Assembly (NCBI GenBank): GCA_963930775.1
Contig: OZ005691.1
Location: 11,281,000-11,344,999, forward strand
Direction of reading: 5' to 3'
Source: Cliona cf. orientalis
Taxonomy: Eukaryota; Porifera; Demospongiae; Clionaida; Clionaidae
Length of the DNA stretch: 64,000 nt
Position 1 is the first letter of the stretch. Every line of letters starts with the position of its first letter. Shown piece by piece: positions 9,878 to 37,815 of this stretch. Made by a program: the position numbers and the translations under genes. The notes below the pieces were generated by a model. The model was not told where the DNA came from and made no database searches. It saw only the letters and a list, made by a program, of their open reading frames with translations.

Positions 9878-10022
9878 AGAGCCTAGTGGTGAGCTTAAAG
9901 TTCTCCCTAAGAAGAATGTGGACACTGGAATGGGACTAGAGAGGATTGTCTCGGTCATCCAGGGCAAGAAGAGCAACTATGACACTGATATGTTCGTCCC
10001 TTACTTTGACGCCATTCACAAA
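9878..10022 (+). other. AARS1: AARS1 exon with class II motif 3
   Basis: This exon starts one base before an in-frame GAG and ends at a GTTAGT donor. It encodes the end of the aminoacylation core: [18 protein letters not shown] includes motif 3, whose arginine contacts ATP in class II synthetases, followed by [15 protein letters not shown]. The acceptor lies directly after about 270 bp of CT-rich repeat, an extreme polypyrimidine tract. Confidence 0.93.
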
Positions 10023-14989: not shown

Positions 14990-15022
<33 letters not shown>

Positions 15023-18000
15023 CCTCTCTCTCTCTCCCCCCTCTCTCTGTCTCTCAGGCCACTGGCGTTCGTCCCTACAGTGGTAAAGTTGGTGCTGATG
15101 ATACTGATGGTATTGACATGGCCTATCGTGTGATAGCTGATCATATTCGAACACTCTCCATTGCCATATCTGATGGGGGAAAACCTGACGCTACTGGAAG
15201 AGGGTGTGTCTATTGTATTTGTGTACCGTATAGCCGGAAAATTTGGCAGGGAATTAAATTTGGTGGTTTGGTGGTCTATATTACAATCAACAAATTAAAA
15301 TCTGCCAAAATTTCTTACTCGCATATATACGTATGGCGATCCCATACCGAACCGTCAAATTCTAATATTCTTGCAATAGCGATTTTGGGCTTAATCACCA
15401 AATTAAATTCCCGCCAATATTTCTGCCTATGCAGTATTTGTGTATGTATGTAGGTGCATGTGCGGACTTGAATTTAAAAGGAGTATGTTTGTAAACTTGT
15501 TTGAAAAGTTCCATTTAATTGATACTCCCATTGCTGTATACATAGTTATCCTAGATACTGTACATGTATACATGTACATTGTTTGACCTCACTGATGGCA
15601 ACATAGTATTATAATCAATTCTTTGTTGAATCTCAATCAGTCTGTAGCAGTCTAATTCTTAAGCTAACGAGCTCTAGATCAACTGATAGTGTTTTAGTGC
15701 GGTTTGCCATTACCCTGTGGCGATATCCTGGTTCATAGACGCATTGTTCAAAGCATGACAAGGCATTATTTTTTTCAGTTTACTCTCGGCGTGTTTGATG
15801 GTCCAAGATCAGTCGCTCTGTACCCTTGATTTCTACCCTCGTGTTTGAACACTATTTCTAGCACTTTGGCCAATTTTAGACTGCTATTTATCATATGAAT
15901 AGCCTCCTTTTGGACCTAGTTATGACTACTCATCTGAACTGTACCGCTCTTTGAAAGTGAAGTTTGGTTGAAAATACGTCTGTAGCCACACTAGACGGCA
16001 TAAAACACCTAAGCTTTTGCGGCTGTTGATAAAAAAATAAATACCTTTTAAAATATCCTGATTGTCTATTGCCATGGTGACATCTGGTAAGTACACATGT
16101 TGAATCAATCAGTCTTTAGCAGTCTATTTCTTCAGCTAACGAGCTCTAGATCAGCTGATAGTGTTTTAGTGCGGTTTGCCATTACCCTGTGGCGATATCC
16201 TGGTTCATAGACACATTATTTAAGAATGGCAAGGCATTATTTTTTTAATTTACTCTCTCGGTGTGTTTGATGGTCCAAGATCAGTCGCTCAGTACCCTTG
16301 ATTTCTACCCTCGTGTTTGAACACTATTTCTAGCACTTTGGCCAATTTTAGACTGCTATTTATCATATGAATAGTCTCCTTTTGGACCTAGTCATGACTA
16401 CTCCTCTGAACTGTACCGCTCTTTGAAAGTGAAGTTTGGTTGAAAATACGGCCCAGAACATCTGTAGCAGCACTAGACGGCATAAAACACCTAAGCTTTT
16501 GTGGCCATTGATAAAAAATAAATACCTTTTAAAATATCCTGATTGTCATCGCCATGGTGACATCTGGTAATTATAAGTATACATGTATGTATGTATGGAT
16601 GCATATATTTAATTTTGGTACTTAGCATCGTTTGAAGTCAGAGAACACATCAAGTTGTAAAAGCCGTTTGCACTTCCAAATCAGTCAATTTGTAGCGTCT
16701 ACCTATTCCTATTATATATGTATGTACATGTACAGTATGTGTAGCAAGTGGCATTTGATTGCAAAAATCAGCTGTGAATAAAAATAGAAGTCTTTTGAAA
16801 ACCTGTCTGCATTCAACAGGATGTGCACAGTCGGTAGTATGTAGCTTGCTTCTCAAAACTACTAATTTAGCAATTTTATTGCATGGTCTGGCAGTAGCCT
16901 AAGTCTTCTTGGGTGGGTGGGGAACACTTTATAGCATCTGCCAGTCAGCTAAAGCACATTTTAGAGCTGCTGAAGACTTTGGGAAAAGCTGATTAAGTCA
17001 TCTGAGATTTTATAAATGTAAATGATTAAGATGTTTGTGTGTACCCATTAGCAACCTTTCAAAGTGTGCCACATGTCAATTGAAGCACTGCAGTACCTGC
17101 TTAGTAGGTATAATTGTAATATGTTTATCATTTCTCATTTAATTTAACTTTTAGCAAATCTATTTATAGCATAGTGGTGCATTTCCCATCCAGGATGTGG
17201 CTGCATATTATAATTAAATATTGTTTTCATTATATATGGAAATTGTTGATTACCTATACTAGCACTTACTAACCACGTAAACATCACAATAACAGCTCTA
17301 TCAAATCTTCCACCACCTACACCTACCTACAACAGCTACTTGGTATGAATCCCCCTTTTCTCTCTCTCCTTCCCTTCATGTTAATCAATCTCGAATTAAT
17401 TTCTAGTTTGTCCATGTATACATACAAGTAGGTAACAGCCCTTAATTTTGCTCGAATGTGAAAGTGTATCATAATTATTAGTAATGGGGAATCCCCCCTT
17501 CCAGTGGATGGATGTATCACTCACTCCAGGGGACTGAAGCTCACTGGGTGTGGAACTATGCAATGCCACAGTTCCATATACCGTGCACTTTTTGCTTTCA
17601 ATGTTTTGCTCCATGTGACCGCTGGTGGGTATTTTTAGCATTACCCGGCCGCAGACACTGGAGTGCTAGTTATCACTGATTTTACCAAAACATTGAGAGA
17701 CATGCAGCAGAGTGGACATATTTGTGGCCTGAGGATTTCCTGAAGGAGGAAGACCAGGGAGTGAGTGGCCTTAGCTAGTCTGTATTTACTTGCACAAACG
17801 CATCAAGTGCTGCATGTAAAGTTGATGCTTGCATATGTAATAGTAATGTCACAATCCGGCTTCATCACAATGCATTGTAAGGGCTTGTAGTGTTGTAATG
17901 CCACACAATGATTCTAAATTAACTTCTGAAATGACCATGCATCCTGGTGTCTGAATTTGTGGTGCTGATGTCTGTAAGAATACTTCAAGCCCACAGTCTT

Positions 18001-21000
18001 GGTGTCTGCTATAGTGGTGATATTCCACATTATATACAGATAGCCATTAGCTCCTGAATAGCTGTTGAATTATTAATTGATATCGACCATTGTACGTGTC
18101 CACCATTGTACTATATTCAATGGTGTTACTCCGTGGTGGTCCAACCCTGGCATTTTGATGAATTAAGTAGTCAAAATATTCCTATGGCATTCACTCATGA
18201 TCACTAGCCTATCCACTGTTCAATGGCAGTGCTTTAATAGTTTATAGCATATTATATGCAATATTTAAAGAAGTATGCTTATAGTTGGTCTATGCTTGAG
18301 CAGCGCAGCGTGTGGTGGCTGTATCACATTTCATTGACAAATTCTAAGAAAATTGTGCACAGAATACCACATGGAGGTTACGTAATCAGCTCTAACAATT
18401 CGCAACAATCTTATGATTTTCTCTTTTCTCGGACATTGGAGCGCATGCTTGTTAGTAATCATAGCATTATTGACTGTAATTACTCTCAGCCCCCCCCCCC
18501 CCCCCTGCTCAGTGCTGTTAGATAATCCTTTGACATTAGATCTACAAAAAACACATAGCTGATCGATTTAGATAATGGCCCATTCTGCCATAGGCTGTTT
18601 TTAACCATGTGATGTGTAACCAATACAGGGTTAGACTTCTAAGCATGCAATAACTGTAAGGGATATCATCTCAATTAGTACGTGTTCGTTTGTGCATGCA
18701 CAATTCTGAGATGAAGTACAATGCTGTAATATATGGTGAATGAAGTACTTAGCAAGCGTAGGATGAATAATGGACAAAAACTTAGAGCAATCAGCTTTGC
18801 AATTATGAACCACACACATACACACACACACACACACTCACATACATACATACATATACACATAATAGTACGTACATGCACACGGGAGACAGCCTGCATT
18901 GTTGAAGAATTTCAGCATCGCTGAGGCGATCTCTCCCACTCCAAAATCCATGGCACTCGCACACTTGCAATGCACAGCTACAATGTAGCTAAACAGAAGC
19001 TATAGGATAACGTGGAAATACAGAAACTGCTAATTTCTTGAGAAAATGGAACTGAATACGCAATCTGATCTATTATGCAACGTGCCTTCCCTTAGTTACA
19101 TATGTACGTACCATACCATGGCCCTGGGGCATTTGCCGCAGACGTGACTTGCTAAAAAGAATAATTGCTGAGGTTTGATAGTTTTGAAAATTTCCATGAA
19201 AGATTATTGTCCATGAAAACAAAAAAAATTGTACCAGGATGCGACAGTCAAATGTTCTTTCACGTCTGACTAGGTTGTTATTGGTTCCATAGCTTAGCAA
19301 CGCTAACATCATCCTGGTTATATCTACATCTCACCATCTCTATGAATCGAAGGTTTGTTATTGGTTGGAGTAGGAGTGATCGAACCACCAAATTCTACTC
19401 TGGACAAAAAAACACCAGATGTTTAACTTTTCATAGCCCTCTGTTAGATGCTGATTGTGGATGATGTCGCACATGCATATATGTAGACGGTGATTAGCGT
19501 TTGAATGTAGCTAGATGCTGCACTGTTGAACTTGTGTGTGGGGCAGTCAATCGGTGCTTGACGTTTTGGATGAACTAATGAATTGACTGTTATAAATTGA
19601 GTGATGATATCAAATCATGATCTCTATTACAACTGTATCACTTTAGGGAATGTCTATTGTGTGATATGCCACATGGTGTTGCACTCTGACCCCTGCATGT
19701 ATATCTGCAAAGGTGGTTGGCTCAGTGCAACTTCTCGATTATCAATCGCTGGCTCTTAGGAGTGGGAAATACTATTCTTTATTTCTAGGGTGAGGAAATA
19801 ACCTCAAGGGAGTGCTGATATGCATACCCTATGTAGATATTAAAATTCATTTCCATGCTGACTAATTAAGAAATATCTCCAAATTGGGGGTGTCTCGATC
19901 GATCTGAAGAAACCCAACGTTGGCACCAGTCTAGAGTAACTTTCCTCACTTTCAATCGCCTTACTGGGACAGTTGTGATGTCTATGTGGTATAATAAAGT
20001 ATCCTCGTTAACTTGCAATAGTTATAAGATTATCAATGACATCACTGGTTGTGTGTGTGTCTCTTGGAGCTGTCCCCATCTTGTAACCCAGTATGTCTGT
20101 CTGCCTGGAAAGCATGCATCCCTACACTCGTGATGAGCACAGCATCGGTTGTTTACAGCCTAGTTATAGCTACGTACCTGACATTGCTTTAATAATTCTA
20201 ATATCATCGTCCCGGCTGCAGGCCTAGGCTAGCTTGTTATTGCATGCATGGCCTTGTCATCTTATCCTGAGTAAACAGATTTAATAATAATATTGGAATA
20301 AATTTGAGGCTTCTCAATAGCTGCGTATGCATACCACCAGCATATCATACCAGACCATACCATAGCACAGCTTATATGCATAATATGACATAGCATAGTG
20401 CAGCACAGCACAATATGACATGGCATAGCACAGCACAATATGACATAGCATAGCATAGTGACTTGTATCCGTGTGTGGGCCACAAACAGCTTGAATTTTT
20501 TGCATTGGGCTAGAAATGGATCATGTTTGCACATCAGATTCTCCCTTTGTTTTAACCAACTCAATCCCCTGGGCCTCAATATCTCACTATGTACCGTATA
20601 GCGGGAAATTTTCGAGGGAGAAAACTTTCGCGGATCGGTAGGAAAGGAGCATTTCGCGGAGAAAACTTTCGCGGAATGTTAAAACTGGTTGCGTAATGGG
20701 CGTGACATGCCTAGAATTTCGTGGAGAAAACTTTCGCAGATGGCTGAAAAATCGCGAAATTCGCGAAAGTTTTCTCCCTCGAAAGTTTCCTGCTATACGG
20801 TATGTGAAGGTTTACTTGTCTTGCTACAGCAGAAAAGCAGAGAACTGCACTAAATCTTTAGCAGACAAGTAATTTCAGTGAACTTCTTGATTGGGTGTTC
20901 GTCATGATATTGATAGCTATGAGCTAGATCGTGTTACACCAATCTGCCATTTTGATGAATTATTTTTCATTGGGAGAAATAATGCCAGATTGGTGTAACA

Positions 21001-24000
21001 CGATCTAGCTCGTAGCTATCAATATCAGTCACCTTTTACTGTGTTTATCTACATTCAGTGGTGGTAGCAGGGACTCACGTTTTGTTTATTTATCTAGTGC
21101 AAAAAAAAAAAATTGTGTACGTAATGTTGAGTGTACTACAAGTCCACTTGTGTAGTTTTGATAGTACGCCTGCTATACAGGTGTTCTGTATAAGCACTTG
21201 AAAACCTCTCAAGCTCGTAATCATAGTACGAGCTTGTTAGTGACAATTACATGCTTTCAAGTGGTGTGGCTACAAGTTAACTGTCTGGAACTAATTAATA
21301 CTAATTGTTTGCATTACCCACTAATTAAGTGTTGGTTATGATAACCTGTCGGATTGTAATTGAATTAATTTTTCCTTGAGAATTTATTGTACATCCATGT
21401 TTCAAGATAATGTACCGAGTACTTAACAAGGATAATAATTAGCACTAATGTGATTGTTATCAAAGAGTAAGTAGTTGCTGGCAGATATTGCTATCAAATC
21501 TACAACCAATAATTACCTGCTATGATTAAGACAATAATGTTTTGGTAATAACCAAACGCTTAATATATCATGTTGATTAGTGCTAATGTGATAGTTAATA
21601 AAAGTGGTTATAAATCTCACTAATTGACGTGTAATGAAATCTGCAACAATTCGGTGATGTCAGCTAATTACACCCTCTGAGTCACACTACTGTTTACACT
21701 TCTTCAATTAAGAAACAGTAGCCTAGTTACAAATTAATGTGATAGTTAACAAAAGATCGTTGAAAAATTTGAAGTTGTGCTACGATTAGCTGATGAATAA
21801 GTGATTGATGGCGTTGAAAGATTAATTTTTATAGCAATTGTGTTAAATTTATTTTTCAACTACGCTTCCCTCCCTGTGCAGGTATGTACTTCGTCGCATT
21901 CTGCGTCGAGGTATTCGCTACTGTAATGAGAAGCTGAAGGCCAAACCAGGACTGTTTGCCAGCCTGGTCGACACTGTCGTTGAATCCTTGGTAAGTTACG
22001 TTATTCTTGTGTTTTCGTCTCCAGGAAGAGGAGAGATAGATTGCAATTATTGTTTAGTTTAGTTGCCTGGTGCCATTATAAGCATTCAGCCAGCCACCCT
22101 GAACTTATGATACTGCCTATAAATAGTTTTGCACACCTGTGAAGTTACTCCAATCTTATTTTTAGATCTGTTACTCATCTTAGTATAATTACTCCCATAC
22201 GTAGCTGTTTACATTAAGCATAGTGGGGTAATATTAATTTTTATTCCCAGCGGGATATTCTGGGATATAAGATTTAATTATGTTACCACTAATTAGTGAT
22301 AACTGGCTGAAGGGGGTACTAAATATAGATATATGACTCCGGGTGTGGCACAGGTTGGCACTTTCACCATCTACCTTGTGGTGAGGGACACCACCTTAAT
22401 AATAAGGTGCTCTGAAATGGTATAAATATCTTAATTAGGAGTTCACGTGTGTTACTATAAAAAACTTGTTATTACTTGTAACACCTTTGGGTAATTAAGG
22501 CTACTCACTAAATCTATCAAATTAACGTAGTCACATGTATGCCTCCAACTGGCAGTGGTCTACCTCAACGACCCACGAGCGGTTTAAAGTACACAAGATT
22601 ATGATAATGATTTACTGTAATTACGTACGTAATATTATTATATGTATGGAACGAGGAGCGGCGCATCAGGTGGGGGGATGTGGTTAAACCACAGTCATCT
22701 GCTCTAGCGTACCACCAGCCTATTGAAATAGCTGCAGTGGGTGATATAACAATACCTAGTGGCTGGAGTTTTTGCTGCATGGATGATGATAGATAAAAAT
22801 CAAATTTTCTGATTTGTAATTTTTAGTTTTTGTAATATAATGCGTCGCTGGAGTGATGGATTTTGAGATTTTTGCGTAATTTGAAATTAATTTTAAGAAT
22901 TCTGGTATTACCAGTTTTAAGTAACATGACCCTGAAAATCTAAAGCGCTGTGGTGGAGTGAAAATGTACAAGTGATCAAGAATTAGCCATAACTTTTTTA
23001 ATTGGCCAGTCTGAGGCAGCCTAGCTACATAGCTTTGGGGCAAAACATAACTCAGAAGATGATTTGTTAATTTTAGCAAAATTAATGGACTGTGACTATC
23101 GATACTAACACTAATTGAGGTTGGGTCTGAGCGTTGAAGAGACAATGAGAGACAAGTGTTGCAGCTGACATAATATTATAGGGTTCGAGAAAAGATAGAT
23201 AAAGAGAGACAGGGGAGAGAGAGAGAGAGAGAGAATCTCGACATTTGTTATGGATTATGCGTTAATTGGTCCAAATTGTTAATTGCTTCACTTAAGCCAT
23301 TGATAAGTCATCTTAATTCCCCTGAACTACAGTCAAAATAATCATAACCGTTTGCGTTACCTTGACCACCGCATGTACGCTTCCACACATGCATACATAC
23401 ACATGGTGTATACTTGATGTATCGCTCTGGGCATGCTACGTGCTCAAGGGTTTCGAGAACATTTGGCTGCTAATTTAGTTGATAATTCCTATGTGGTGAA
23501 TCAGATATGTATGAGTAGCTTGTGGTCTGTGTGTTATCGTGGACTTAGTCTAGCAGATGCATACTTACAGTCAGTGTAGGTAGTGTAGTATGTACATGTA
23601 ATTGTCACTAATAACCATGTGCTATGATTACGAGCTTGAGAGGTTTTCAAATGCTTATACAGAACACCTGTATAGCAGGCATGCTATTTTTGTATCACGT
23701 ACACAAAGCAGTGTGTCTACATATTTGCATGCACATATACCCTATAGACGTATAATGATATGTTATGTATTCGTGTTTTTACAAGTGCTGCAGGGTCGTA
23801 GTGATTGATACGCATGTACGTGGGATGTTATTGTCCAAAGTTACGTATGATCACATTTAGTTGACATGCTATTGGGTCGGTTTTGTTTGAAGTCTTGTCT
23901 AATGTGGTTGCTCTACAGGAAAATAAGGAAATACTGTTTATATTCGATAATTTTTTGCTAATAGTCTCCTTGGCGATTTCTCAAGCCTCTCCCACCCCCC

Positions 24001-27000
24001 CCTACGGTAATTTAAATTCTTTAGCTTCAGGCATTCTTCTGCTGTTGTCCTTTTTATTGATATTTACATAAGTGAAATATTCCAGCAATTTGGCGATTTT
24101 CGACAATAGGATGGACAACAGCCTTGCACCTCGTAACCAGTCAACATCACGTATCAAGTTTCTTACCCATGGCTTTGATGAATTTGAATAACACCTGTTT
24201 CTCGCTAGTCTAGAAATCGGCTGATCTTGAGTTTGTGCCCGCGTCAAAAGTTCCTTATCTCCTGAATTTCCACACCAAAGCAAAATCTATACAGCAAGCA
24301 TGTGCATGTGTGGCCTGGAATGCTTTTAAATTAATCATACTTTCTAAAGGACCACTGATCTACGTACGTACATACATACAATGTACACATACTGTACTTA
24401 ATCTAATACTACGTATGGAAAAAAAAAAATAATTTTGATTTTGAAAATACGTGCTTTTCTGGTAAAGGTCGTCAATCCCCTCGGATATACACGTTATGAG
24501 AATTCGTAAAATGCTAATTTCGTTAGATTGGATCATATGTTGTATTTGATTAACTACAGTATTATGTACTTCTTCCGAAAACACACACTTTCACAGCAGC
24601 AGCGTTACTGTAGTGTTAATTTTCATTTTTTTTTTTCCTTCTCCTCCTCTTCAGGGTGATGCCTTTCCAGAGCTCAAAAAGGATCCTCAAATGGTCAGCA
24701 AATAAATATCATTTGTACTTGCATTTCTTAATTGACTTGAAATTTGTGGTGAACTGGTTTAGCCGAGCTTTGACAGTGGAACCTCTCTTAGACTATTGAA
24801 GGAGGACCTTTGAAATAAGCACATCATCTCAATCAGTTGCATGGAACTGATAGTTACGTGTATATTATTCCCTGAAATAAGGATCCATCCTCCCTTAGTT
24901 ATATTATGGTTCCTAGGGTGTCGGGTTCCACTGTTAGTACTGGTAATATTTCAATTTTTGAAGCCTTAACTCTTACTTAATTTATCAGCGGCAGGCGACT
25001 ACCTACAGACAGACATACTTGTATACACACACATAGGATGTAACTAATGCTGGTGGTATGTCGTAATGCCATACGAGCGTAGCTACATCAGTAGTTAAGT
25101 AATGTGGCTTTGTATACTTGTGGTATAAATATTGCATTCAGTGATAGCCTAAGCCAGTGCCTGGAAGTCTGCCGATGAATTATTTGGAATATTTAATGGT
25201 TAGAAGTAAGCAGTGGTAACTATGGTGATCACCTTGTGCATGTAGACCTATGGCTTACAGAGTAATAAATGATTGTGCCTTGAGCTTTTAATATTGTGCC
25301 GGTGATTTGAAGTCAGATCGTATTACTAGAAAGCTCGAGCTCTGTGTACATAGATTTTTATTCAATTTCTAGATGACCACACTTCAAATGTACATACCTA
25401 TTGGAATTAGGATATTAAAGTGTCCTTAATTGACTAATTAACTTAATGTTATATAATTGTGTGTATGGTGCCCTTTGGAGATCAAGGTGATGTACGTATG
25501 TATCGGCATATTTCTCTCTCTCTCTCTGTTGCATTTAAGCTGTGACCTTAGCCTGCATTAGCATTGAAAGTGGGTCATATAGAAGTGCAGACTTTGGATT
25601 TTGTAGAGCATACTTCTAGTGAATATGAAATTATTTGGCTAAGAAATCGAAGTGTACTTCAAAGATCATAACTATGCATCCCCCAAGTGCTGACTAGTGT
25701 CATATCTGGTGCACCTAATTACACATAATATGCTGTCAAGGGCTTATAGACTCCATAAACCCTTGATGCTGTGCACTGCTGCATTTCTTTACTGATTTAA
25801 TTGTGATGAATTTCATTTTTAGTTGCACGCAGCTTCGACTTCAAAAAATGTATAACATAGACCTTTAATTTAATAACCACATGTACAGTAATTAAATGGA
25901 GTTAGCCGGCGGCTTCAAGTGATGGAAACTAATTAAGAGCTGTCTGTGATCGCGGTTATAATTAAATATTAATTTCAGGAGCCATAGGTTAGTGATGCCT
26001 TATCTTCAGGGATTTCATAGATTACCTTATAATTGGTGTAATTAGCTACAAATTACACTGTAATTATGTACAACGCTGAAAGCATTTTTGCAGTATGTAG
26101 GCCTAGCACCTACTGTGCTTTGCAAGTCAGTTGTCCAGTGGAAAGGGTAAATAGGCAGTGGCTCTCAAGTGCTTAATTCAGTTGTACTACAAGTCACGAA
26201 GGCTTTCAGTTTATGTAGTGACAGAGACAGGTGCCATTCCCTAACCTTCCTAGTCAACTAGCACAGTAGGCCTAGATTGCGATATTTGGTAAGGGTCGTC
26301 GTTGTCACAAATCGTAATCATCTATACATTTGCTTCGTGTGTGTGCTCATGGCATTGCATGTGTGCCTTTTCGTGTGTGTGCATGACTCCAATGTAATTG
26401 CTTGTAATTTTATATAAGAGAAAATACCTGCCATAACTTTTATCATATGTCGCCGTGGTAACTGGCTTCATGTTGATTCGGTTAGTGCCAGAAATACAGT
26501 ATGGATTACAAATTCACTTTTTATTGCACGTTTGCGTGCATGCATAGCGGTTTACTTTGATGTATGTAATGTTTATCGATGAAAGTGTTAAATGTGGCGA
26601 TAACCATGTGCTACAAGCTGTGGTGAATTGATTAACGTACATACGCGTTTGTGTGTGCATGTACTTGTTATCATAATCGTTTTGGCCACATTACTAGTAT
26701 TCATGTGGTTTTGCTATACCATTTGACTCCAACAAAAGCATTGTGCCACCGTTTTTGCAAAGTCTGTACACAGTGTATATGAAAGTACGTACATCGAAAG
26801 AAAGAAAGATCCATAGTTTGTCAGTAGTCTAAATGGAGTTAATGTGGGGTATAAATAAATTCCAGTCACCTACGTACATATCTTCAAACGTACATATGTA
26901 TATACCGTAGAAACTGGTTGTTAAGCGCTGCTCGCTGTTAAGCGCATATTTTTTATTAAGCGCATAGTTTTGTGCGAGCATTACCGCTCTTTATTAGGCG

Positions 27001-30000
27001 CACATGCCCAGCAAGCAACCTGAATGACGAGTGATCGATTACACGAGCCCAGAAAGAAGGCTACAAGTAGGCTGGAGAAGAAAACGTCGAAAAATACGCT
27101 CTCTGGTCGCTTCTTGGCCATCACTGTAGGCCTTCCTACCCTCGACACGTTCTTTACGCACGCCCCACCTTAGCACTTTTAATTAAGTGCATGCTTCCTG
27201 TTAGCGCATACTTTTTATTAAGCGCATATTTTCTTGCTGCCGCGTGTTATAAGCGCATGCGCTTAACAACCAGTTTCTACGGTATGTACATGTATGCACC
27301 ATTAAAATTTGCTTGTACATCTATCAGGTGATGGATGTTATCAATGAAGAGGAAAAACAGTTTTTAAAGACTCTATCTCGAGGGAAGAGAGTGTTTGAGC
27401 GAACGATCCAAAGAATGGATCCTTCAGTCTCTGTCATTCCAGGTATGTAAGTATGTGTGTATGTTTGTATGGTTGGGTAAAGGTCGTCATCTGCATATGT
27501 CCGGTACCATCAGAATTGGACTTAATTTAGTGTCTGTGATTTCACGAGTAGTTAAGAGTGCTTGCAGTTTTACCATTTTTGGTAGCCAAGTAATAGTATC
27601 ATCTTCGGCCCTTTGATGTACGGTACCACCTGGTTCGTCAGGCCTCTGGTAGTGGGAGGGGCACGTACACTGGAGAAGAAAGTATTCAACTTCATTAAGT
27701 ATTATAATCGACGATTAATTAAAATGGAGACAAATTTGTAGGGCAAATTGCGAGAGATAATGGATTTATGAAATATGATCATACTCCACAATCTGAAGGA
27801 GTGGGGAATTAAATCAAGATCAAAGTGAAAATTTCCACGTCGAAATTTAATTTATAAGACGTAGTTGTGGCTCGATCGTAATTGTCGAGTATACTCCCTT
27901 CGGTCTGGTAGTGAATTTCGCAGCATGCTTGCATGCTTATTCTTGCCCAGCCCCAATTACCTAAACCAACATGGTCATTAATGCTGGCATTTATAGGATA
28001 ACTTGAGCTTAATATTAAAAGTACGCATAGGTTGCGTATTCTGTCACGGGCCATTGCTCGTTCCGTCTTAGAGGCTGCGATCTGATTGGTTGGATTAAAT
28101 CGCCTCTCCTTTGACCGAATTTCGTCATTAAATTTTAGCGTAGGGGGATGGCTTGCGTTGATGCGCAAGTTAATGGCTCGAGAGTGGCGTAATTAAACCA
28201 AATCCCATGTCATCAATTCCTTTCGACTGTTTCTACCTAATGCTGAAACACTTGATACTACCGGCCGATTAATTTGGACCAATTATTATTCGTTAGAGGA
28301 TTTCACCACCTGTCCAATGACACTGCAGTTTTCCATCACTCCCCCTTGTCCGCTGGAACACATACGTACGCAGAGAAATTAATTAAAGAATGCTGTTAGA
28401 ATTAGCATGTAGTGTAGCTTGAGATGTTTGACCTCTTTTTTGTACTCCTTACTATTTCAGTAATTGGCAGTGTAATGACTTCAAATTGAAGCAATAATTC
28501 ATGAGATGGTTTTGTTACCAGTTCAATTTTGTGTGCAGATCGGAGATGTATTTTTTATGGGAAACACCCCTGATATTTACCTTAAACTTTATTACTAAGG
28601 GTTATTATATAATTAGAGCACCATATACATACATATACGTACGTATACGCGTAATACTATACATGTAGGTAATGTCGCCTGGCGTCTTTACGACACCTAT
28701 GGGTTTCCGGTCGATCTTACCTCCTTGATGGCCGAAGAGAGAAATCTCACTATCGACTGTGAGGGATTTGAGATCGCTAAGCAACGTGCACAGGTACGTC
28801 ACATAATATTACAGTAGCAATTAGTGTCTAATTTTGTATGCGTGTGCTATTATATCTGTCAATTGACAAAATTTTAATGCTCTATAATTAAAATTTCTCT
28901 GAAATGATCTGTCTTTTAAGTGTGGGTGGTTTCATCAAACTAGCGAGAGTATTGCCTTGCACTAGCTTAGTGTGTACGTATGCATGTGCTACGTACGTAT
29001 ATCAATTGACGAATGCTTCATAATTAAAATTTCTTAGAAGTTATTACTAAACAGTTAAGAATCATTATATTCGTGTCGATAATTACATAATTACAAGCAT
29101 TTACGTTAGTTCACAATTATAGCAATTATATCAGTTTATTCTTTACGCAAATTAGTAATAATCGTTAGCAATCAGTTAGTTATTGTATAGTGTAACTGAG
29201 AATGTAATTAAGTTATGCTTTGAGTATTTTGACACCTTTTTGTTAATTACTGCCTCCTTTAGGAGATCGCTCGAGGCACAGGGGGCGGGGTCGATGATGT
29301 AATTTGTTAATTACCACCTCCTTTAGGAGATCGCTCGAGGCACAGGGGGCGGGGTCGATGATGTAATTTGTTAATTACCACCTCCTTTAGGAGATCGCTC
29401 GAGGCACAGGGGGCGGGGTCGATGATGTAATTTGTTAATTACCACCTCCTTTAGGAGATTGCTCGAGGCACAGGGGGCGGGGTCGATGATGCAATCAACC
29501 TGGACGTACATGCTATTGACGAGCTCCAAAAGAAGGGGATTCCCCCAACCAACGATAAACCCAAGTACAAATACACATCTGATGAGCAGGGAAACTATGG
29601 TGAGTCCGACTGAATTCTGCAACCATCATCGATTTGTTGGCAAGTGCAGAGATAAGATATCCTGTATAATTATAGCCTAAAATTTCAGTGGGCGAATACG
29701 TTTTATGGTCTGCTAAAACCTACTCAAAAATGAAATTATCATGGTCAAGCTATCAAGCTTGCATCTGTTATGAACGTGAAGTTTCTGGGAAGAACATTAT
29801 GGCTTCCCTGTGACCCATATAATCTGTAAACATTTTGTCCTCAAAAATTTTAGACTGTAATAATAATATTATGGTACAGTAACTGTATTAGCACATTCTG
29901 TCAGCATGCTTTAGATGGTGTGGTCCTTGCATGGTGCATCTTTAAATGAATCTGTCACATTCTTGAGAAGGCATTAAAACGTGTAAAATTTTCAAGTTTT

Positions 30001-31990
30001 GTAGCTTCTAATTAAGTCTCGCCATGAGCCAGATACCCAAGTTGCCAAAATGCATAAAATTACCACTAATCTCATTTCATTATGAATTTTATCGGATTAA
30101 CGCCTTCGGCTCAGACTGGGAACATACTTACGATAAGCAGTGCTTCAATTTAAATTGCGTTAGAAGACCGTCTATTGATGAGATCAGGTGATGCTCAATT
30201 TCAGCGTATATGTCGGAAGCAGTGCATAATATTATATGTGTGCGCTTGTGTGTAGTCATACGATACATACATGAAGCATATTATGTCAGGAGCAATGTAA
30301 TGAAGTCAAGTTCGTTTTTGTTGGAGAGGTGTATAATATGTAGTTTTCATTTTACATCCAGGGCATGCTAGTGCTATTATGCTTAATTATGCATTTAAAT
30401 TATGTGCACCTTAACGAGCTCTTAGCCTACTGTCTTCTGTCCTGTGATGTTGGAATTCCATGGGGTACCCCACCCTCCATCACCATGGCAACCTACATGT
30501 CCACCTACTCTTTTGGTCCAGTACTTGGTGCTAAAATTACAGTTTAAAGAAAATTAGGTGCCACTTGAAAAGCCAACTCTTTCTTTTACCTTCCTCTTTA
30601 AGTCTACTGAGTTTCTATGCCCTTCAGCATGAGCTAAGTATAATCATCAACATTCCAGCGGTATAGACCCATACTCCCCGGTGACTACTACCCTGTATCC
30701 TGCTTACTGCTGACCTATCTACAGATCTCCGCTAGATACTGGGCGTACTTAGTGTAAATATCCACTCTTTGCATGCAAACGAACGAGACCACAATTGAAG
30801 ATAGCTGCGTATACTGCTCTAGCTGGCTCTCGTTGCTTAGAGGTATCAAATGTCTTATGTATGCATTGTGCTCCGTGTTATGTGGTGCAGTACGTGCTAG
30901 GCACTAACGCTGTCATTTATTGCTCTCCAATCATCCAACCATTTCAACGACTACTACTTAGAGACAATGACATGCAAGGTGGGCTAAAGAATTTTAAGAT
31001 ACCATAGATGCGTTGGTGTGCCGTGTGTGTGTATGTGCGCAGTGAAGCGGCTCTGAACCAACATGCCAGATTAACCAGACGCCAGGTGGCGGTGGGTGAT
31101 CCAGCTGGTAATTGGCGACACTGATTCCTGTCGTGACTGAAATTTACACGCTTACTTCGTGATGATAGATTTAAATTATTGGATGTTTTCCATCATGGAT
31201 ACGCACTAACGTACATGTACATACATACATACGCTTTAAAATTTTATTGCTATACTCATATCTCCTGGGACTCTAATAGAAGGAGTTGTTCAATTCCACA
31301 AGTGACAGCGTAATATTTCTTGTAGTGAGCCATGATTAAAGGGGTCCTCTCATTTCTGATTTTCTAGTCTGAGAGTGTTCTGGAGGGAAGAGTAGTATTG
31401 CACAATGATCAACATCAGTACATGCCCTTATCAATTTCTCACAGAAGCTCTTAGACTATCTTCACAAATGTTTACGCATCCTGGCTGAATATTCTCCTGT
31501 CTCTGCCCTAGCTAGAGTACCACTGCCGGTATATGATTGCATATAAAGTGCTATCGAGCGAGCATTGCATAATAGTGCCCTGAAATGATAGAACACTACA
31601 CTGCAAGAGCAGCTGCTATGAGGAAGTGGCTATAGCACTGTTTGACAACTGTACTGATACTACAACCAGATAGAAAAGCCCTAGTACTATATTCAGAGGA
31701 ACCGTGATAATTTCAACATACACACAGGGGGTGGTCAATTCTTATACGTACCATAGCTGTGTACCTATGACAACTGTGTGTACGTATCTCATAGCTACGT
31801 ACATAGGTCAGATGGTACATACGTACACAGTATGCTAGCAGGGATTGATTGTCAATCAATGGCTATATACGTAATTATTATATACGTGCAAATAATGCCT
31901 GGGATTCCAGCCATGTCCAGTAAACTGTGAAGTTCATTCTTTTGATGCATCCAACTTTTTCATGATTAGCAGCATCAACCATGAATCTGT

Positions 31991-32045
<55 letters not shown>

Positions 32046-35000
32046 GAGAAAACAGTGTGATTCTTTAGAAGGAGGAGAGATTGAGAATCAGACTTGCTCC
32101 AGTGCTATCCTGTACATAAACTTTTAGGGAGATAAAATCAACCTTGGAGCCTTGCACTAACTAGTTGATCTATAGAGAAGCTAGACCTGTATCTGGTTGG
32201 CTAGTGAATTTTTTATACTTCAGTGCTTTGCCTAGTGTTCTTGTAGTTAGTAACATAGCGCTCAGTTTTCTGCTGGATGGAGACAGTGTGATACCACTCT
32301 AATTTAGCCATGTTTGCATGTTAAGTTAGGTCAATATGAACCATCTAAGTATGTACCACTTTACTAGTACAGGAAGCCACAACTATTGGGTTGTGACGCT
32401 TAAATTAACATTTTAGGTATAATTGTAATTTTAAGAGTGGCATGTGTCCAGCAGCAGGATTTTGATCATCTTAATGGTTTCATATCCCTCTGCTCCCATT
32501 TTGTTTCAAGCCTTGTCCCCAGTTCAGCATGGGATGAATCTGGACTTTGAGAACATATAGATATGGATTTATTTGGAGTGTGGGGGATTTCCCATCCCTG
32601 AGGTTGATTCCCCTCCCTAGAATTTCTAAAGTGTACATAAGGGATACCGTATAGCGGGAAATTTTTGAGGGAGAAAACTTTCGTGGATCGGTAGGAAAGG
32701 AGCATTTCGCGGAGAAAACTTTCACGGAATGTTAAAATTGGTCGCATAATGGGTGTGGCATGCCTAGAATTTCATGGAGAAAACTTTCGCGGATGGCGGA
32801 AAAATCGCGAAATTCATGAAAGTTTTCTCCCTCGAAAGTTTCCCGCTATACGGTACTCTCCAGTTATGAAACACTTAATCAATCCTGTCACAACTAACCA
32901 TATTTTTTGCACATGGACACAGGTAGGTAGTGTGCATACGTACATACATGCACAATATTTCAGCTTTATACCCTAACAGCAAGAAGAAAATTTTGATTTT
33001 TGTTGGGTGTTTCTTATCAGGAGCTGTTTCATATAATATTATGGTACCTCTACCATAAATTATACTAATTATAAAGTATTGAAACATGTCTGATTTAAAG
33101 AACCGACGACTGATAATCCCGTGATTTAAATTTCATACCCTGATACTTGCTGTTGCTGCAGCGTTTGAGAGTTGTGAGGGCACTGTGCTCGCTCTTCATT
33201 ATGACAAAAAGTTTGTGGAAGAGATCAAGAGTGGAGAGCACGCTGGAGTGCTCCTGGATACGACGTGCTTCTATGCTGAACAGGGTGGCCAGATCTATGA
33301 TGAAGGGTTTATCACAAAGACGGGCGATGAGGTGAGAGCTGAAACCAAGGAACCCACCAGGCCCTCTCCCGCATGGGGATTGGGAATGTGACTAGTCATC
33401 AGCTGAATTTCTCTAATAATTATTTTTGACCATTGGGATAATTAGAGCGAGTATGGAAATTATTAGCTAGGCCAGGCAGAATGTGCATACACTTGAGAGA
33501 GAGAGAGGGATGGAGGAAGATGAGAAGGGAAGAAAGAGGAAGAGAGAGAGAAAGAGAGAGGGAGTGGGAGTGGGAGGGAGAGAGAGAGAGGGAGGGAGAG
33601 AGTTGGGGGGGAGTAAATTAAAGAAGAGAGAGCTTGTGGAAGATTATTATATTGCATATTGTTATCATTTTGCAGGAGACTGAGTTTGCTGTGAGGGATG
33701 TTCAGGTGAGGGGAGGGTATGTCCTCCATATCGGAGCCGTTGAGGGCAGCCTGAAGGTCGGAGACAAGGTCGTCTGCACCATTGACGGGGTGAGTAGCTG
33801 CCACTGTATGGTAAGGGTCGTCAAGGCAAGCTTTTAACTTTGACGACCTATACCTCTTAGGAAATGGGTACAGTGTTATTGACAATATTTTTTGTCATGC
33901 AGGATCGTCGTAGTGATACTATGAAGAACCACACAGGCACGCATGCTTTGAACTTTGCCCTGCGGCGGATTCTTGGTGAGGCTGATCAGAGGGGCTCCCT
34001 CGTTGCTCCTGATAGGCTCCGGTTTGACTTCACTGCCAAGGTTCGTTGGAATGGAGAAGTCACTTAAATTTTACTTATCCTCTCTCTCTCTCCCCTCTTG
34101 CTCCTCTTGCTCAAACAGAAAGCCATGACCAACGATCAGATTCGTGAAGTTGAGGTTATTCTTGACAGTATAATAAAAGCCAACAACCCTGTCTTTGCGA
34201 AAGAGGCTCCCCTCCCACTGGCTAAAGAGGTGCAAGGACTCAGGGCCTGCTTTGATGAGGTATGTACGTCTGTACACACTAATCTTCGGTATACTAATTA
34301 CATACTTCGATGGATAAGTCGAACTTTGGCATCATAAATAATCTCAATTGATGGATGAAATCCATGAAGTTTCAAATTCTTAACATTTTCGTTCCTTGCA
34401 TACTTGGATGAACTGTATGGATGTTGCTACAGTCGCTATGGCAACCTTCAATTCCGAGAATGCTAGATCAAGAGCAGGCAATTAGCAGCATAGACTACAC
34501 ACACATACAGTGTCTGTGTCTGTCAGTCCCCTCGCTCACAACCTCATTCACGATAACCACTGATGCTTTCATAGCAAGTGTACTACTATAGGAAATACAT
34601 GACATTGTACATTTAGTACTATTAAATACCATGTAGCCGGAAATATTGGTGGGAATTAAATTTGGCGGTTGGGCCCAAAATTGCTATTGCAAGAATATTA
34701 GCAAATTTAAATTTGGTGGTTTGGTACGGGATCGCCATACGTATATATGTGAGTATGAAATTTCGGCGGATTTTAATTTGGCGGTTGTAACATAGACCAC
34801 CAAACTGCCAAATTTAATTCCCTGCCAAATTTTTCAGCTATACGGATTAGAGTTCTTCTAATGAAATTGCCATTGCTCAGCGATTAGGCATATTGATAAT
34901 AGCAGTCCACGATTCATGTGCAGATTGCGTGACTTTCTATGGTCTGTATTTTAGCCTTATGGCTTGTGTGTGTTTGCAGGTGTACCCTGACCCCGTTCGT

Positions 35001-37815
35001 GTGTTGGCCATTGGTGTCCCCATAGATAAGCTGATGGACGACCCCAGTGGACCCTGGGCCATTGAAAACTCAGTCGAGCTCTGTGGAGGAACGTACGTGC
35101 AATGCATAATGAAGAAAGTTTGTTTTATTTTATTGGAGATTGCTTTCTCTCTCTCTCCCTTTCTCCCTCTCTCTCTCCCTTCCTCTCTTTCTCCTTCTCT
35201 TTCTCCCTTCCACTCTCTCTCTCTCTCTCTCTCTCTCCCCCTCTCCCTCCCCCCACCCCCACAGTCATCTCCAGCGTGCTGGTCATATCAAGTGTTTTGC
35301 TGTTGTTAGTGAAGAGGCCATATCCAAAGGAATCAGAAGAATCGTTGCTCTCACTGGAAATGAAGCTATCAAGGTACATGTGTACCATAATCATCCATTA
35401 GAATCCCGGATAGATGTCCTTATTCAATATAGTAGCTTCCATACATTGGCACCCATACTGCAAGTTGTGTTTTAGCACCCGATTTAATGATACGATGACC
35501 CTTTACCACACATACATACACCCTTACGTGTGTACTTTCACATATATTTATATTGTTCCACCCTCTGCCACTGTTGATCCCTTTAGTCTCACCGCCATGC
35601 TGGGTTGCTGGAGCAGCAGGTGGACCAGCTCTGCTCCGAGGTGAAGGCTGGTCATGAAAGTGGCGTCATCTCCTTCAAGGGAGCTGTGAAGAGAATCACT
35701 GACATGGGAGATGTACGTTACCTCACACATACCGGCTTACTGAAATGTGCCATTTCACTCTGTAAAGCTACATCTCGGGGAAGGGGGGGGGGAGGGGGGC
35801 GGGTTGAGGGAGTGAAGGGGGACCTTTATTGTACTACTAAGCTCAAGACTGTTAGAATAATATACTATGCGCTGATAATGGGCATTAATTTTTATTCACT
35901 CCCGTTAAGAATGTTTTGTAAAAGCTTACAATACCTGTAACACTGACAGAACAGACAGCTTTGAAAGAATTTTCCCATCTAACAATCTACATAGTAATTA
36001 TTTTCCCCGAATGTACATGATGCAGGATCTTTCTGTGGCTGTGATCTCCCAGTGGAGAAAGGAGGCCATGAGGTCAACTCTCAAGACTTTCAAGAAGACC
36101 ATTATTGATGCTGACAAGGCTGCCAAGGCTAAACTGGTGCAAAAGGTCGGTGGTGGATGTGACAGCCACTCCTCAAGCTTGAGCTCCGAGTGGCAAAATG
36201 ATTCACTTAATTTAATATTAATTTTCGCGAAAGTTTCTCTCCACAAAAATCATTTTAATGTGCTCTTTCTACCGATCGATCTGCTATATATAATATCGTA
36301 TCTCTCCCCTCACACATATATTAACACACACCCCTACAGGCCAGCGACAAAGCCAAGGAGCTGATTGGTGGACTGCCCGACCCCAAAGCTACCGGTGTGA
36401 TGGTGGAAGTTCTGGAGGTCGAAGGTCAATCCAAGGTTGGTCATTTTTCACATTAATTAAATTTTTATGGATGTCTGCAAAAATTATTAATTTTTTGTTC
36501 GTAGGCTTTGGACAGTGCCCTGAAGCAGTTCAAGTCGCTTGCCCCCAACACGGCTGCCATGCTGTTCAGCGTCGATCATGACAACAACAAAGTAATATGT
36601 CTCAGCCTCGTCCCAGACGTAAGTCGAGATGATGTCATCATTACATCGTCACAGAATAAGCACTGTAATACTGAGTACTGAAACATTAAGTAACAAGTTA
36701 CGTATGTACGTATGTGCCCCCATGGCTAGTTGGGAATTTTCTGGATGATTTACAGCAGTTTCAATGTTGTAGTATTCTAGCTCCCTGCATAACATTATGT
36801 AAGGCTGCAATGGACTGTTCTTTGACGTGGGACTGGGGGGATCCAAAGGCTTAGATATGGGGACAGGCCCCACCCTCCCATCATGACTTTTGATTCTGCC
36901 TGGGGAGGGTACTGAAAATACCACCGAGTATTAGCATAGTTCCTTTCTGTCTCTCTGATCTGATAATCATATATAACTTAATTACTCTCGAGGGCACATG
37001 TAAATCACACATCAAGTTCAATACTAATTTCCCCAGAAAGAGTGTCGAAGAATGTTAAGTTTGATGTGGCGATTAAACGACCTCGTACATCCTGACCGTG
37101 GTACCACTGACCACTGTTAATTAGAACCGCTTCTTTAAAGTTCCTTTGGAAATTTTCTTTAGAGGAAAGAAGATTCTTTTTAAATGATTAAATTATGCCG
37201 TGGCAGCATGGTGGCTACGCCCTTAGTGTGTTGGGTGGGGGGTGGTGGGGATTTCATGAATCTCAACATAAGGATGTTAGCCCAGCTACCCTTTTTGTAC
37301 TTTTAGACTTCTGTATATATGTGAAAGGAAGCTATGATGCCTGCCATGTTATACTTTCTGTGTAGTTGACCCCCTGGTGAGCAGGCTACAACCAATTTTG
37401 GTGTATATATCAGTATTAATTTTATAATTATTGGAGAGACAGGTCTGGTATTGGTAAAAATTAAATTTGGCGATCTGAACCATAGGTACACATGCATTAT
37501 AATTTCAATTGATTTTGGTAATTTTGGTGATTTTTGTTTGACAATCTTTTCCCAATAATTCATGAAATAGACAATCTTTATTTTTTTGCTATAATTGATT
37601 TTAATATTACATAATTTATTGTGGCGTTTCCATACCTACAGGGCCTTGCTGGTAATGGCCTGACTGCCAGTGATTGGGTAAAGAGCGTTACTCCAATCAT
37701 CGGAGGGAAAGGCGGAGGTAGTGATACCAACGCCCAGGGGTCAGGGGTCAAACTGGACAAGCTTTCGGAAGCGGTGGAGGTCGCAAAGCAGTACGCTTCA
37801 TCGAGAGTCAAGTGA
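9878..37815 (+). CDS. AARS1: Alanyl-tRNA synthetase, cytosolic type (5' partial, 18 exons)
   Basis: It attaches alanine to tRNA(Ala) in the cytosol and hydrolyses mischarged Ser/Gly-tRNA(Ala). Coding exons: 9878-10022, 15058-15203, 21882-21990, 24655-24693, 27328-27442, 28669-28793, 29455-29599, 33162-33331, 33676-33789, 33903-34040, 34119-34259, 34980-35092, 35265-35373, 35587-35712, 36026-36145, 36340-36435, 36505-36618 and 37642-37815 (TGA). The phases join into one frame of about 745 residues. The sequence matches animal AARS1 from about residue 228 to the end: class II motif 3 ([10 protein letters not shown]), [10 protein letters not shown], the editing motif FYAEQGGQ, zinc ligands HTGTH and CGGTH, and a C-terminal domain ending in SSRVK. 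The first visible base completes a split codon, so upstream exons (about 225 residues, motifs 1 and 2) are outside the window. Exon 7 has a quadruplicated 3' splice site. Identity is near certain; single boundaries may be off by a few bases. Confidence 0.96.
11050..11415. repeat. Degenerate ~100 bp minisatellite, four units
   Basis: Four diverged units each begin with a word like CACTACCACAGACC and contain a palindromic core such as TGTAATTATTACA or ATAATCATTACATC. Starts are near 11053, 11133, 11224 and 11319. The first two units are most alike; the third and fourth have small insertions. The whole lies inside an AARS1 intron. Confidence 0.75.
14332..14374 (-). ncRNA. Hammerhead ribozyme-like motif (type I, minimal stem III)
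   Basis: Read on the minus strand, the 43 bases give stem I UGCC, core CUGAGGA, stem II GACUA/UAGUC closing a 9-base loop, core GAAAC, a minimal self-complementary ACGU in place of stem III, a GUC cleavage site and the stem I partner GGCA. This order is that of a type I hammerhead. An unpaired U sits before stem II, and stem I is only 4 bp before mismatches. Short-stem-III hammerheads are known from Penelope-like retroelements, so this may be a relic of one. No reverse transcriptase was seen nearby. Confidence 0.5.
15224..15435 (-). mobile_element. MITE-like element family 2, copy A
   Basis: It begins TACCGTATAGCCGG and ends in a decayed terminal repeat near CCTATGCAGTA. The interior has mirrored blocks (GGGAATTAAATTTGG and its complement near the other end). 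It matches the copies at 34627-34846 and 63066-63271 but lies in the opposite orientation. It has no coding capacity and sits 20 bp after the AARS1 exon ending at 15203. Confidence 0.8.
15625..16570. repeat. Tandem duplication of ~470 bp
   Basis: Two copies of about 470 bp lie head to tail. GCTCTAGATC is at 15671 in the first and its counterpart near 16143 in the second. Both end with the words CCATGGTGACATCTGGTAA. They differ by scattered substitutions and small indels, including a short insertion in copy 2 near 16450. No open frame is conserved between them. Confidence 0.85.
18491..18504. repeat. Poly-C run
   Basis: An uninterrupted C tract of about 14 bases within an AARS1 intron. It is prone to slippage and assembly error. 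Confidence 0.8.
20592..20802 (+). mobile_element. MITE-like element family 1, copy A
   Basis: 211 bp, starting TACCGTATAGCGGGAAA and ending with its near-complement TGCTATACGGTA. Several internal blocks of AGAAAACTTTCGCGGA occur in direct order on the left and inverted on the right. The copy at 32645-32855 has exactly the same length. It has no open frame of its own, so it is a non-autonomous element. Confidence 0.88.
20905..21027. repeat. Near-perfect inverted repeat (hairpin, ~47 bp arms)
   Basis: Left arm 20905-20951 and right arm 20981-21027 are complementary except for two positions (gagctag/cgagct-type difference and one G/C), around a 29 bp AT-rich loop. As RNA this would be a long stable hairpin inside an AARS1 intron. 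It could be a foldback element or a young MITE. Confidence 0.85.
21168..21226 (+). repeat. 59 bp dispersed repeat, arm 1
   Basis: This 59 bp block, starting GCCTGCTATACAGGTG and ending GTAATCATAG, recurs inverted at 23622-23680 with one mismatch. The two flank about 2.4 kb that includes an AARS1 exon. They could be separate insertions of one short element rather than termini of a single element. Confidence 0.8.
21991..24654. other. AARS1 intron (2.7 kb), no gene seen
   Basis: It contains the second arm of the 59 bp inverted repeat, a GA run (23213-23234) and a stretch around 24420-24500 with the word GGTAAAGGTCGTCA and similarity to the inside of MITE family 5. The 129-codon minus-strand open frame at 22756-23145 is low in complexity and unlike any family I know. 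Confidence 0.65.
23622..23680 (-). repeat. 59 bp dispersed repeat, arm 2 (inverted)
   Basis: The reverse complement of 21168-21226, with a single mismatch in the centre. Flanks outside the 59 bp do not match, so the similarity is sharply bounded. Confidence 0.8.
24694..27327. other. AARS1 intron (2.6 kb), one MITE-like element
   Basis: Between the 39-base exon ([13 protein letters not shown]) and the exon starting VMDVINEEE. Apart from the family 3 element near its 3' end (26903-27284), a short CT run near 25511 and a GGTAAGGGTCGTC word at 26288, I see nothing. Confidence 0.65.
26903..27284. mobile_element. MITE-like element family 3
   Basis: 382 bp bounded by exact 26 bp inverted termini beginning TACCGTAGAAACTGGTTG. 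Repeated TTAAGCGCATA words lie next to both ends. The centre has no recognisable coding sequence. It ends 43 bp before the AARS1 exon at 27328. One copy in the window. Confidence 0.85.
27443..28668. other. AARS1 intron (1.2 kb), no gene seen
   Basis: It contains a GGTAAAGGTCGTCA word at about 27476 and a block with GATTGGTTGGATTAAA at 28083. A 119-codon minus-strand frame (27809-28168) shows no family resemblance and no splice-flanked structure. Confidence 0.6.
29240..29490 (+). repeat. Four tandem 64 bp copies of the AARS1 exon 7 acceptor
   Basis: A 64 bp unit holds a polypyrimidine tract, the acceptor CCTCCTTTAG and the first 36 bases of the exon ([12 protein letters not shown]). Exon-like starts are at 29263, 29327, 29391 and 29455. 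Only the fourth continues into the true exon (GATGATGCAATCAACCTG). The first three read GATGATGTAATTTGTTAA, which gives an in-frame stop if read through, or a GTAATT donor after 36 bases if spliced. The copies are nearly identical, so the expansion is recent. Confidence 0.95.
31994..32042. repeat. GA microsatellite
   Basis: An almost pure (GA)n run of about 49 bp in an AARS1 intron. It is purine-rich on the coding strand, the opposite of the CT tracts found at acceptors. Confidence 0.9.
32645..32855 (+). mobile_element. MITE-like element family 1, copy B
   Basis: 211 bp, with the same termini (TACCGTATAGCGGG / CCCGCTATACGGTA) and the same internal order as 20592-20802, in the same orientation. 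The differences are scattered point changes, many of the C-to-T or G-to-A kind at CG sites. Confidence 0.88.
33493..33620. repeat. GA-rich tract in AARS1 intron
   Basis: A purine-only tract of imperfect GAGA/GGGA repeats, followed by AAAGAAGAGAGAG. It lies 56 bp upstream of the exon starting at 33676, where the acceptor has an ordinary T-rich tract. Confidence 0.85.
34627..34846 (+). mobile_element. MITE-like element family 2, copy B
   Basis: About 220 bp, left end TACCATGTAGCCGG and right end AGCTATACGGA. It shares TATTGGTGGGAATTAAATTT, GGGATCGCCATACGTATATA and the mirrored GGCGGTT blocks with the copy at 63066-63271. Non-coding. Confidence 0.85.
35143..35260. repeat. CT-rich tract at AARS1 acceptor
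   Basis: About 118 bp of C and T only, ending in CCCCACCCCCACAG, which forms the polypyrimidine tract of the exon starting at 35265. Confidence 0.9.
35587..37815 (+). other. AARS1: AARS1 C-terminal (oligomerisation/C-Ala) exons
   Basis: Five exons (35587-35712, 36026-36145, 36340-36435, 36505-36618, 37642-37815) encode a predicted coiled-coil stretch with heptad-like spacing ([18 protein letters not shown]) and the glycine-rich C-Ala domain (LASDW-like context SDWVKSV, then [17 protein letters not shown]). The full natural C-terminus is present, ending with a TGA at 37813-37815. Confidence 0.9.

Follow-up and report, generated by a model that had tools for sequence, protein, structure and literature searches.

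Which 3′ splice site is used when the boundary between an intron and an exon has been copied four times in tandem? AARS1 of the sponge Cliona cf. orientalis raises this question, as a 64-base segment spanning the end of intron 11 and the start of exon 12 occurs there in four near-identical copies, each with its own acceptor. An initial annotation of this DNA had proposed that the arrangement provides normal, inserted and poison isoforms of this essential enzyme. Here we analyze the locus within a 64,000-base stretch of chromosome 3 (the window), together with searches of the whole genome that covered 216.8 Mb in 149 contigs. The published genome note gives 217.17 Mb in 307 scaffolds and describes an RNA-seq run, ERR13669944, from the same specimen as the assembly (PMC12639293).

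AARS1 and the array at its exon 12 boundary

The exons of AARS1 were located by tblastn using a human AARS1 sequence as the query, and their limits were set by eye before being joined into one reading frame. The resulting model is comprised of 23 exons and 22 GT-AG introns, with a 971-codon frame that is intact when copy 4 provides the start of exon 12. Its product is collinear with human AARS1 in the tblastn alignment and contains the Pfam domains tRNA-synt_2c, tRNA_SAD and DHHA1. The alignment and the joined frame bear out the identification of the gene, and of a phase-0 exon upstream of the array, in the initial annotation. AARS1 extends over approximately 60 kb, with an intron 5 of 17.1 kb, yet the same gene possesses introns of 69 and 78 bases.

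When the sponge AARS1 protein was searched against the genome, 22 of the 23 exons matched at the chromosome 3 locus, the exception being the 39-base exon 9, and elsewhere only pieces of the gene were found, on contigs C13 and C15. The chromosome 3 gene appears to be the sole complete copy. A genome search with PF01411 found no separate mitochondrial-type AlaRS, the matches listed outside chromosome 3 being AARS1 fragments; such a gene may simply be missing, because the BUSCO completeness of the assembly is only 80.8% (PMC12639293).

The pieces on C15 are two processed, intron-free fragments (L013:8403-9105, minus strand, and L014:5149-6192) that cover CDS bases 1-709. One is contiguous, with 94.6% identity; the other, ~86-90% identical, contains an inversion of its central portion. 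The two break off at an identical base of exon 6, the sequence beyond it is related in both, and they perhaps represent a captured cDNA piece that was later amplified. As fossils of splicing, both stop short of the exon 11/12 junction, which lies at CDS 1356/1357. A candidate AARS2 locus proved to be a processed AARS1 fragment with 0 introns. The piece on C13 (L015:4428-4737, minus strand) comprises two adjacent partial copies of exon 2 with intron flank and is a genomic, not a processed, duplication.

Table 1. Coordinates of AARS1 and array features. The first row is in chromosome coordinates and all others are numbered from the first base of the window; a slash marks a splice junction or candidate junction.
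Feature	Position	Strand	Description
Window	C3:11281000-11344999		Cliona cf. orientalis, chromosome 3, GCA_963930775.1, assembly odCliOrie1.1
AARS1 exons 6-23	9878..37815	+	Human AARS1 alignment; exons 1-5 upstream on the same chromosome
AARS1 exon 11	28669..28793	+	Phase 0 end (...KQRAQ), donor CAG/GTACGT; alignment and intact frame
AARS1 intron 11	28794..29454	+	661 bases to the copy 4 acceptor; 469 to the copy 1 acceptor
Copy 1	29239..29302	+	Acceptor before 29263; exon-like part; weak GTAATT at 29299; own upstream intron context
GGG/GTCGAT	29290..29291	+	Scores highest among the GTs in a unit (4.55 bits); outranks 4 of 57 used donors
Copy 2	29303..29366	+	Acceptor before 29327; weak GTAATT at 29363; identical to copy 3
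In-frame TAA	29308..29310	+	Codon 16 after the copy 1 acceptor; equivalents at 29372 (copy 2) and 29436 (copy 3)
Copy 3	29367..29430	+	Acceptor before 29391; weak GTAATT at 29427
Copy 4	29431..29494	+	Acceptor before 29455; continuous with real exon 12; GCAATC where the others have GTAATT
AARS1 exon 12	29455..29599	+	145 bases; donor ATG/GTGAGT, 9.37 bits

The array, delimited by Tandem Repeats Finder at 29239-29495 (period 64, 4.0 copies, 97% matches, no indels, score 486), is as a repeat far beyond chance. Its units lie head-to-tail, each consisting of 24 bases from the end of intron 11 followed by 40 from the start of exon 12, and the copies are 94-100% alike. A search of the 216.8 Mb assembly with the array DNA yielded a single match at E <= 0.001. 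Tandem Repeats Finder and the comparison of units thereby confirm the four near-identical 64-base copies of the initial annotation, which had also placed the end of exon 11, the four acceptors and the three GTAATT candidates where Table 1 has them. It had credited each copy with a full acceptor and 36 exon bases; the acceptors do look complete, and the exonic part is 40 bases long (41 counting the T at 29495). Each unit has TAGGAG at its acceptor (for example at 29260-29265), and a shift to the second AG of this NAGNAG tandem acceptor could cost exon 12 its first codon (Glu).

The units vary solely at positions 13, 14, 30 and 62 (4 of 64), where copy 1 has T, G, C and T, copies 2 and 3 have C, A, C and T, and copy 4 has C, A, T and C. 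The inner copies match copy 4 at positions 13 and 14 and copy 1 at positions 30 and 62, with each edge copy differing from them at two sites. This pattern, which involves four informative sites, is as expected if the inner copies arose through unequal exchange between an older pair or were homogenised while the edge copies drifted. With 4 of 64 bases differing between copies 1 and 4, the initial duplication is unlikely to be very recent.

Acceptors of the four copies

To score the splice signals of the array, position weight matrices were built from 57 introns, namely 22 from AARS1, 13 from EEF2, 8 from an EFTUD2-like gene and 14 from VCP, after one poorly aligned VCP junction (score 29) had been removed from an original 58. 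The EFTUD2-like introns, which were placed with the EEF2 query, are the least certain of this training set. An automatic junction finder returned 14 AARS1 introns, 12 of which agree with the set placed by eye; for the other two, introns 14 and 16, the automatic calls had low scores (45 and 26) and the version set by eye was kept.

In leave-one-out scoring, the acceptors of copies 1 to 4 reach 9.16, 9.9, 9.9 and 9.9 bits and outscore 39, 44, 44 and 44 of the 57 used acceptors, respectively. Elsewhere in the AARS1 introns, 13 of 2972 AGs reach the copy 4 score, two of these being the acceptors of copies 2 and 3. With a matrix from the 35 non-AARS1 acceptors, copies 1 and 4, the two that were scored, each rank above 24 of 35. 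Given these high scores, the upstream acceptors are real decoys in sequence terms. The copies differ in what lies ahead of the exonic part: in copies 2-4 the intron sequence is limited to 24 bases and is preceded by exon-like sequence, while copy 1 keeps the original upstream context. Every copy includes a TTAAT whose A lies 17 bases upstream of the exon, and copy 1 also has a TTGAC 31 bases upstream of it. YTNAY motifs as a class show no enrichment ahead of used acceptors: 41 of 56 in the sample have one, and shuffling gives a mean of 43.35. Masking of the decoys by strong RNA structure was considered and rejected: the fold of 29225-29600 is equalled or bettered by 88 of 100 shuffled versions (z = +1.18) and gives no basis for favouring any one copy.

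We consider it probable that the array is a tolerated “mirage”, the name given in amphioxus to minisatellite-like tandem repeats of intron-exon boundaries (PMC3087553), and that productive splicing goes to copy 4. A 64-base segment across the intron 11/exon 12 boundary would have been duplicated and later expanded, leaving the two inner copies as the youngest; the pattern of variant sites is observed, and unequal exchange or slippage may have generated it. The productive mRNA would most likely join exon 11 to copy 4, with copies 1-3 behaving as intron 11 sequence that carries decoy acceptors. We infer this junction because copy 4 alone is continuous with exon 12 and with the strong donor of that exon, 145 bases downstream, to which its acceptor is the nearest. 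A haplotype that directed most splicing to copies 1-3 would be expected to do severe harm, since 22 of the 23 AARS1 exons match at this locus in the genome search and other loci hold only pieces of the gene. As a counterpoint, the acceptors of copies 1-3 are about as strong as that of copy 4 and are nearer the upstream donor, and copy 1 might even be preferred because it alone keeps the original intron context and the second branch-like motif, TTGAC.

Some read-through into a poison reading frame is possible on this evidence, in that some transcripts may take a decoy acceptor, reach a TAA at codon 16 and be degraded. As the initial annotation had stated, use of an upstream acceptor without a new donor leads to this in-frame stop, which we read directly for copies 1 and 3, the sequence of copy 2 being that of copy 3. 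Eleven exon junctions lie downstream of exon 12, and the premature TAA precedes them; the predicted inclusion product therefore has the stop upstream of later junctions that is characteristic of a poison exon.

It is conceivable, although we regard it as doubtful, that this route is taken by a substantial share of transcripts, in which case the array would constitute a poison-splice allele that lowers AARS1 output through nonsense-mediated decay, not a regulated switch. The strength of all three upstream acceptors, the scarcity of intronic AG sites that match the copy 4 score, the stop reached from each upstream acceptor and the eleven downstream junctions, which would favour decay, all speak for such an allele. 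Against it, AARS1 has one locus with a near-complete exon set, and the amphioxus precedents are reported to be regularly spliced (PMC3087553, PMC3902484). The arrangement of exon 12 itself also weighs against the poison allele. Under exon definition, the acceptor nearest a strong downstream donor is favoured, and with the strong donor at 29600 this acceptor is that of copy 4.

Candidate donors and a putative microexon

The initial annotation had further suggested that a base change after GATGAT creates a plausible donor, GTAATT, in copies 1-3, so that a 36-base microexon fits in frame ahead of the true exon. A base change is indeed involved in the origin of GTAATT (C/T, with GCAAT in the exon and GTAAT in copies 1-3), but the duplication junction is needed as well. 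The in-frame arithmetic is correct, as are the hypothetical introns of 156 and 92 bases from copy 1 or 2 to copy 4, which fall inside the sampled intron range of 69-17123 bases. The corresponding intron from copy 3 would be only 28 bases long, below this range.

Scoring did not support the plausibility of the donor. GAT/GTAATT reaches 1.17 bits, compared with a median of 8.15 for used donors, and outscores 1 of 57; each of the 57 has a G at -1 or at +5, and GTAATT has neither. Among GT dinucleotides in AARS1 introns, 1155 of 3918 (29.5%, the three candidates included) score at least as high. As AARS1 sites placed by eye may lean towards consensus, the test was repeated with the 35 non-AARS1 donors alone, where GTAATT scores 1.0 bits and exceeds 1 of 35. 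GTAATT is also weaker than GGG/GTCGAT, the best-scoring GT of the unit, which recurs at 29354, 29418 and, within normal exon 12, 29482, and which would define a microexon of 27 bases, also in frame. The microexon is possible, but its GTAATT donor is close to the level of a random intronic GT.

If such a microexon were made, exon 11 would be spliced to copy 1 or 2 and, from GTAATT, across a new intron of 156 or 92 bases to copy 4, adding 12 residues in frame, and the locus would represent intron gain in progress. We judge this improbable. Beyond the arithmetic and the acceptable intron lengths, it can appeal to the 39-base exon 9 that AARS1 already possesses and to the RdRp gene of potato, where a duplication across an intron-exon boundary gave rise to an intron that uses GTAAG as its donor and is supported by RNA-seq (PMC4974935). 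The position of the insert might also be favourable. The exon 11/12 junction follows residue 452. Of 16 listed sequences from solved structures, nine are catalytic fragments whose match to the sponge protein extends to residue 452-459; beyond the match, seven chains have 2-6 further residues and the other two have 39. An insertion this close to the border of the catalytic fragment might therefore be tolerated. The donor argues the other way, being outscored by nearly all used donors and lacking the G that each of them has at -1 or +5, and even the stronger GTCGAT is presumably unused in the normal exon. The potato donor was GTAAG (PMC4974935), and copy 3 offers no intron of ordinary length. 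An efficient microexon is unlikely. There is likewise only a slim chance that intron gain has been caught in the act, with a microexon from copy 1 or 2 (36 bases through GTAATT or 27 through GTCGAT) in part of the AARS1 mRNA, the intervening copies serving as the new intron and copy number differing between haplotypes.

That the copy number is wrong or the array artificial is very improbable: one haplotype was examined and an alternate, GCA_963930685.1, exists, but the sequence comes from a HiFi assembly at about 90x with a primary-haplotype QV of 58.0, the 256-base array is far below the mean read of ~9 kb (4.11 million reads totalling 38.47 Gb; all PMC12639293), the copies differ in a structured way and the window contains no N.

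We order the readings in this manner, from a probable tolerated mirage through a doubtful poison allele and an improbable microexon to a barely credible assembly fault, because the alternatives entail either a stop or a below-par donor and no second complete gene was found. The system of normal, inserted and poison isoforms envisaged by the initial annotation is unsupported, as is a regulated switch, and lancelet genes with this kind of array are reported as regularly spliced (PMC3087553, PMC3902484).

Boundary arrays in this genome and in other organisms

To assess whether an array over a splice site is surprising, we surveyed 14 regularly placed 10-kb stretches (140,000 bases), which contain 13 merged arrays of complex units covering 3738 bases (2.67%; 1.47% without the largest). 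The species has 25,502 genes with 5.78 exons per transcript (PMC12639293), and random placement would put about 1,800-3,300 of ~122,000 acceptors inside arrays. Since such arrays are common, the location of one over a splice site needs no special explanation, and selection should remove many. Boundary arrays are not frequent in conserved genes, as shown by the boundaries of the 57 introns, of which 1 of 114 is embedded in an array; this one is the exon 12 acceptor, whose locus was chosen for it, and the other 113 yield 0. Arrays of a related 65-base unit (ACTGGTCAGTCGACTTAGCTG...) occur at L029:8324-10000 and L025:7980-8432, on contigs C5 and C4, and one of them has at least 26.2 copies and continues up to the end of the examined stretch.

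The closest relatives of the AARS1 array are the mirages. In amphioxus BflGb6, the mirage comprises the 3′ end of an intron and the 5′ part of exon 2, with six and three units in two haplotypes and homogenised inner units, and RT-PCR suggests that regular splicing is undisturbed (PMC3087553). The same source gives unit sizes of 10-72 in Adh3 and 150-160 in the globins and presents a hypothetical model in which the exonic part of the repeat could turn into a real exon. Mirages are also described in troponin C (TnC) and PGBD5, and those of Adh and TnC are reported to yield no aberrant mRNAs (PMC3902484). The AARS1 array is a sponge instance of this already known architecture: its units span the boundary (24 intron and 40 exon bases), their length of 64 bases lies in the described range, and copies 2 and 3 are identical with diverged edges. 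As in amphioxus, a unit of minisatellite size covers the boundary, inner units are homogenised while edge units have diverged, and splice signals are present in many copies (PMC3087553). The AARS1 array differs in phylum and gene, and in that every upstream sponge copy possesses a GT that is missing from the authentic copy. No sponge mirage was among the literature matches listed, which does not establish that none is known.

The potato RdRp gene resembles AARS1 in that the duplication crosses an intron end and exon start, so that acceptors are inherited, and in that the upstream exonic part holds a donor candidate. Yet the sponge locus has four copies versus two, and its weak GTAATT contrasts with a GTAAG supported by RNA-seq. 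A boundary-crossing duplication that supplies acceptors is thus common to both genes, whereas no GT in the exonic part of an upstream AARS1 copy reaches the strength usual for a donor. The creation of new splice signals by tandem duplication is further shared with Drosophila near-intron pairs (PMC2891723) and human internal tandem repeats (PMC2812944). The Drosophila cases are described as old and as derived from proto-splice sites in coding sequence (PMC2891723), unlike an array that straddles an existing acceptor; the human repeats are described as lying within exons (PMC2812944), unlike the AARS1 copies, whose 94-100% likeness extends over the acceptor.

If copy 4 is used, the array is an ordinary curiosity. 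With four near-identical 3′ splice sites, three of which lead to a stop, the locus is a natural experiment in acceptor choice, and which acceptor this sponge uses bears on the roles of proximity and exon definition outside bilaterians, on the tolerance of mirages and on a possible route from them to introns.
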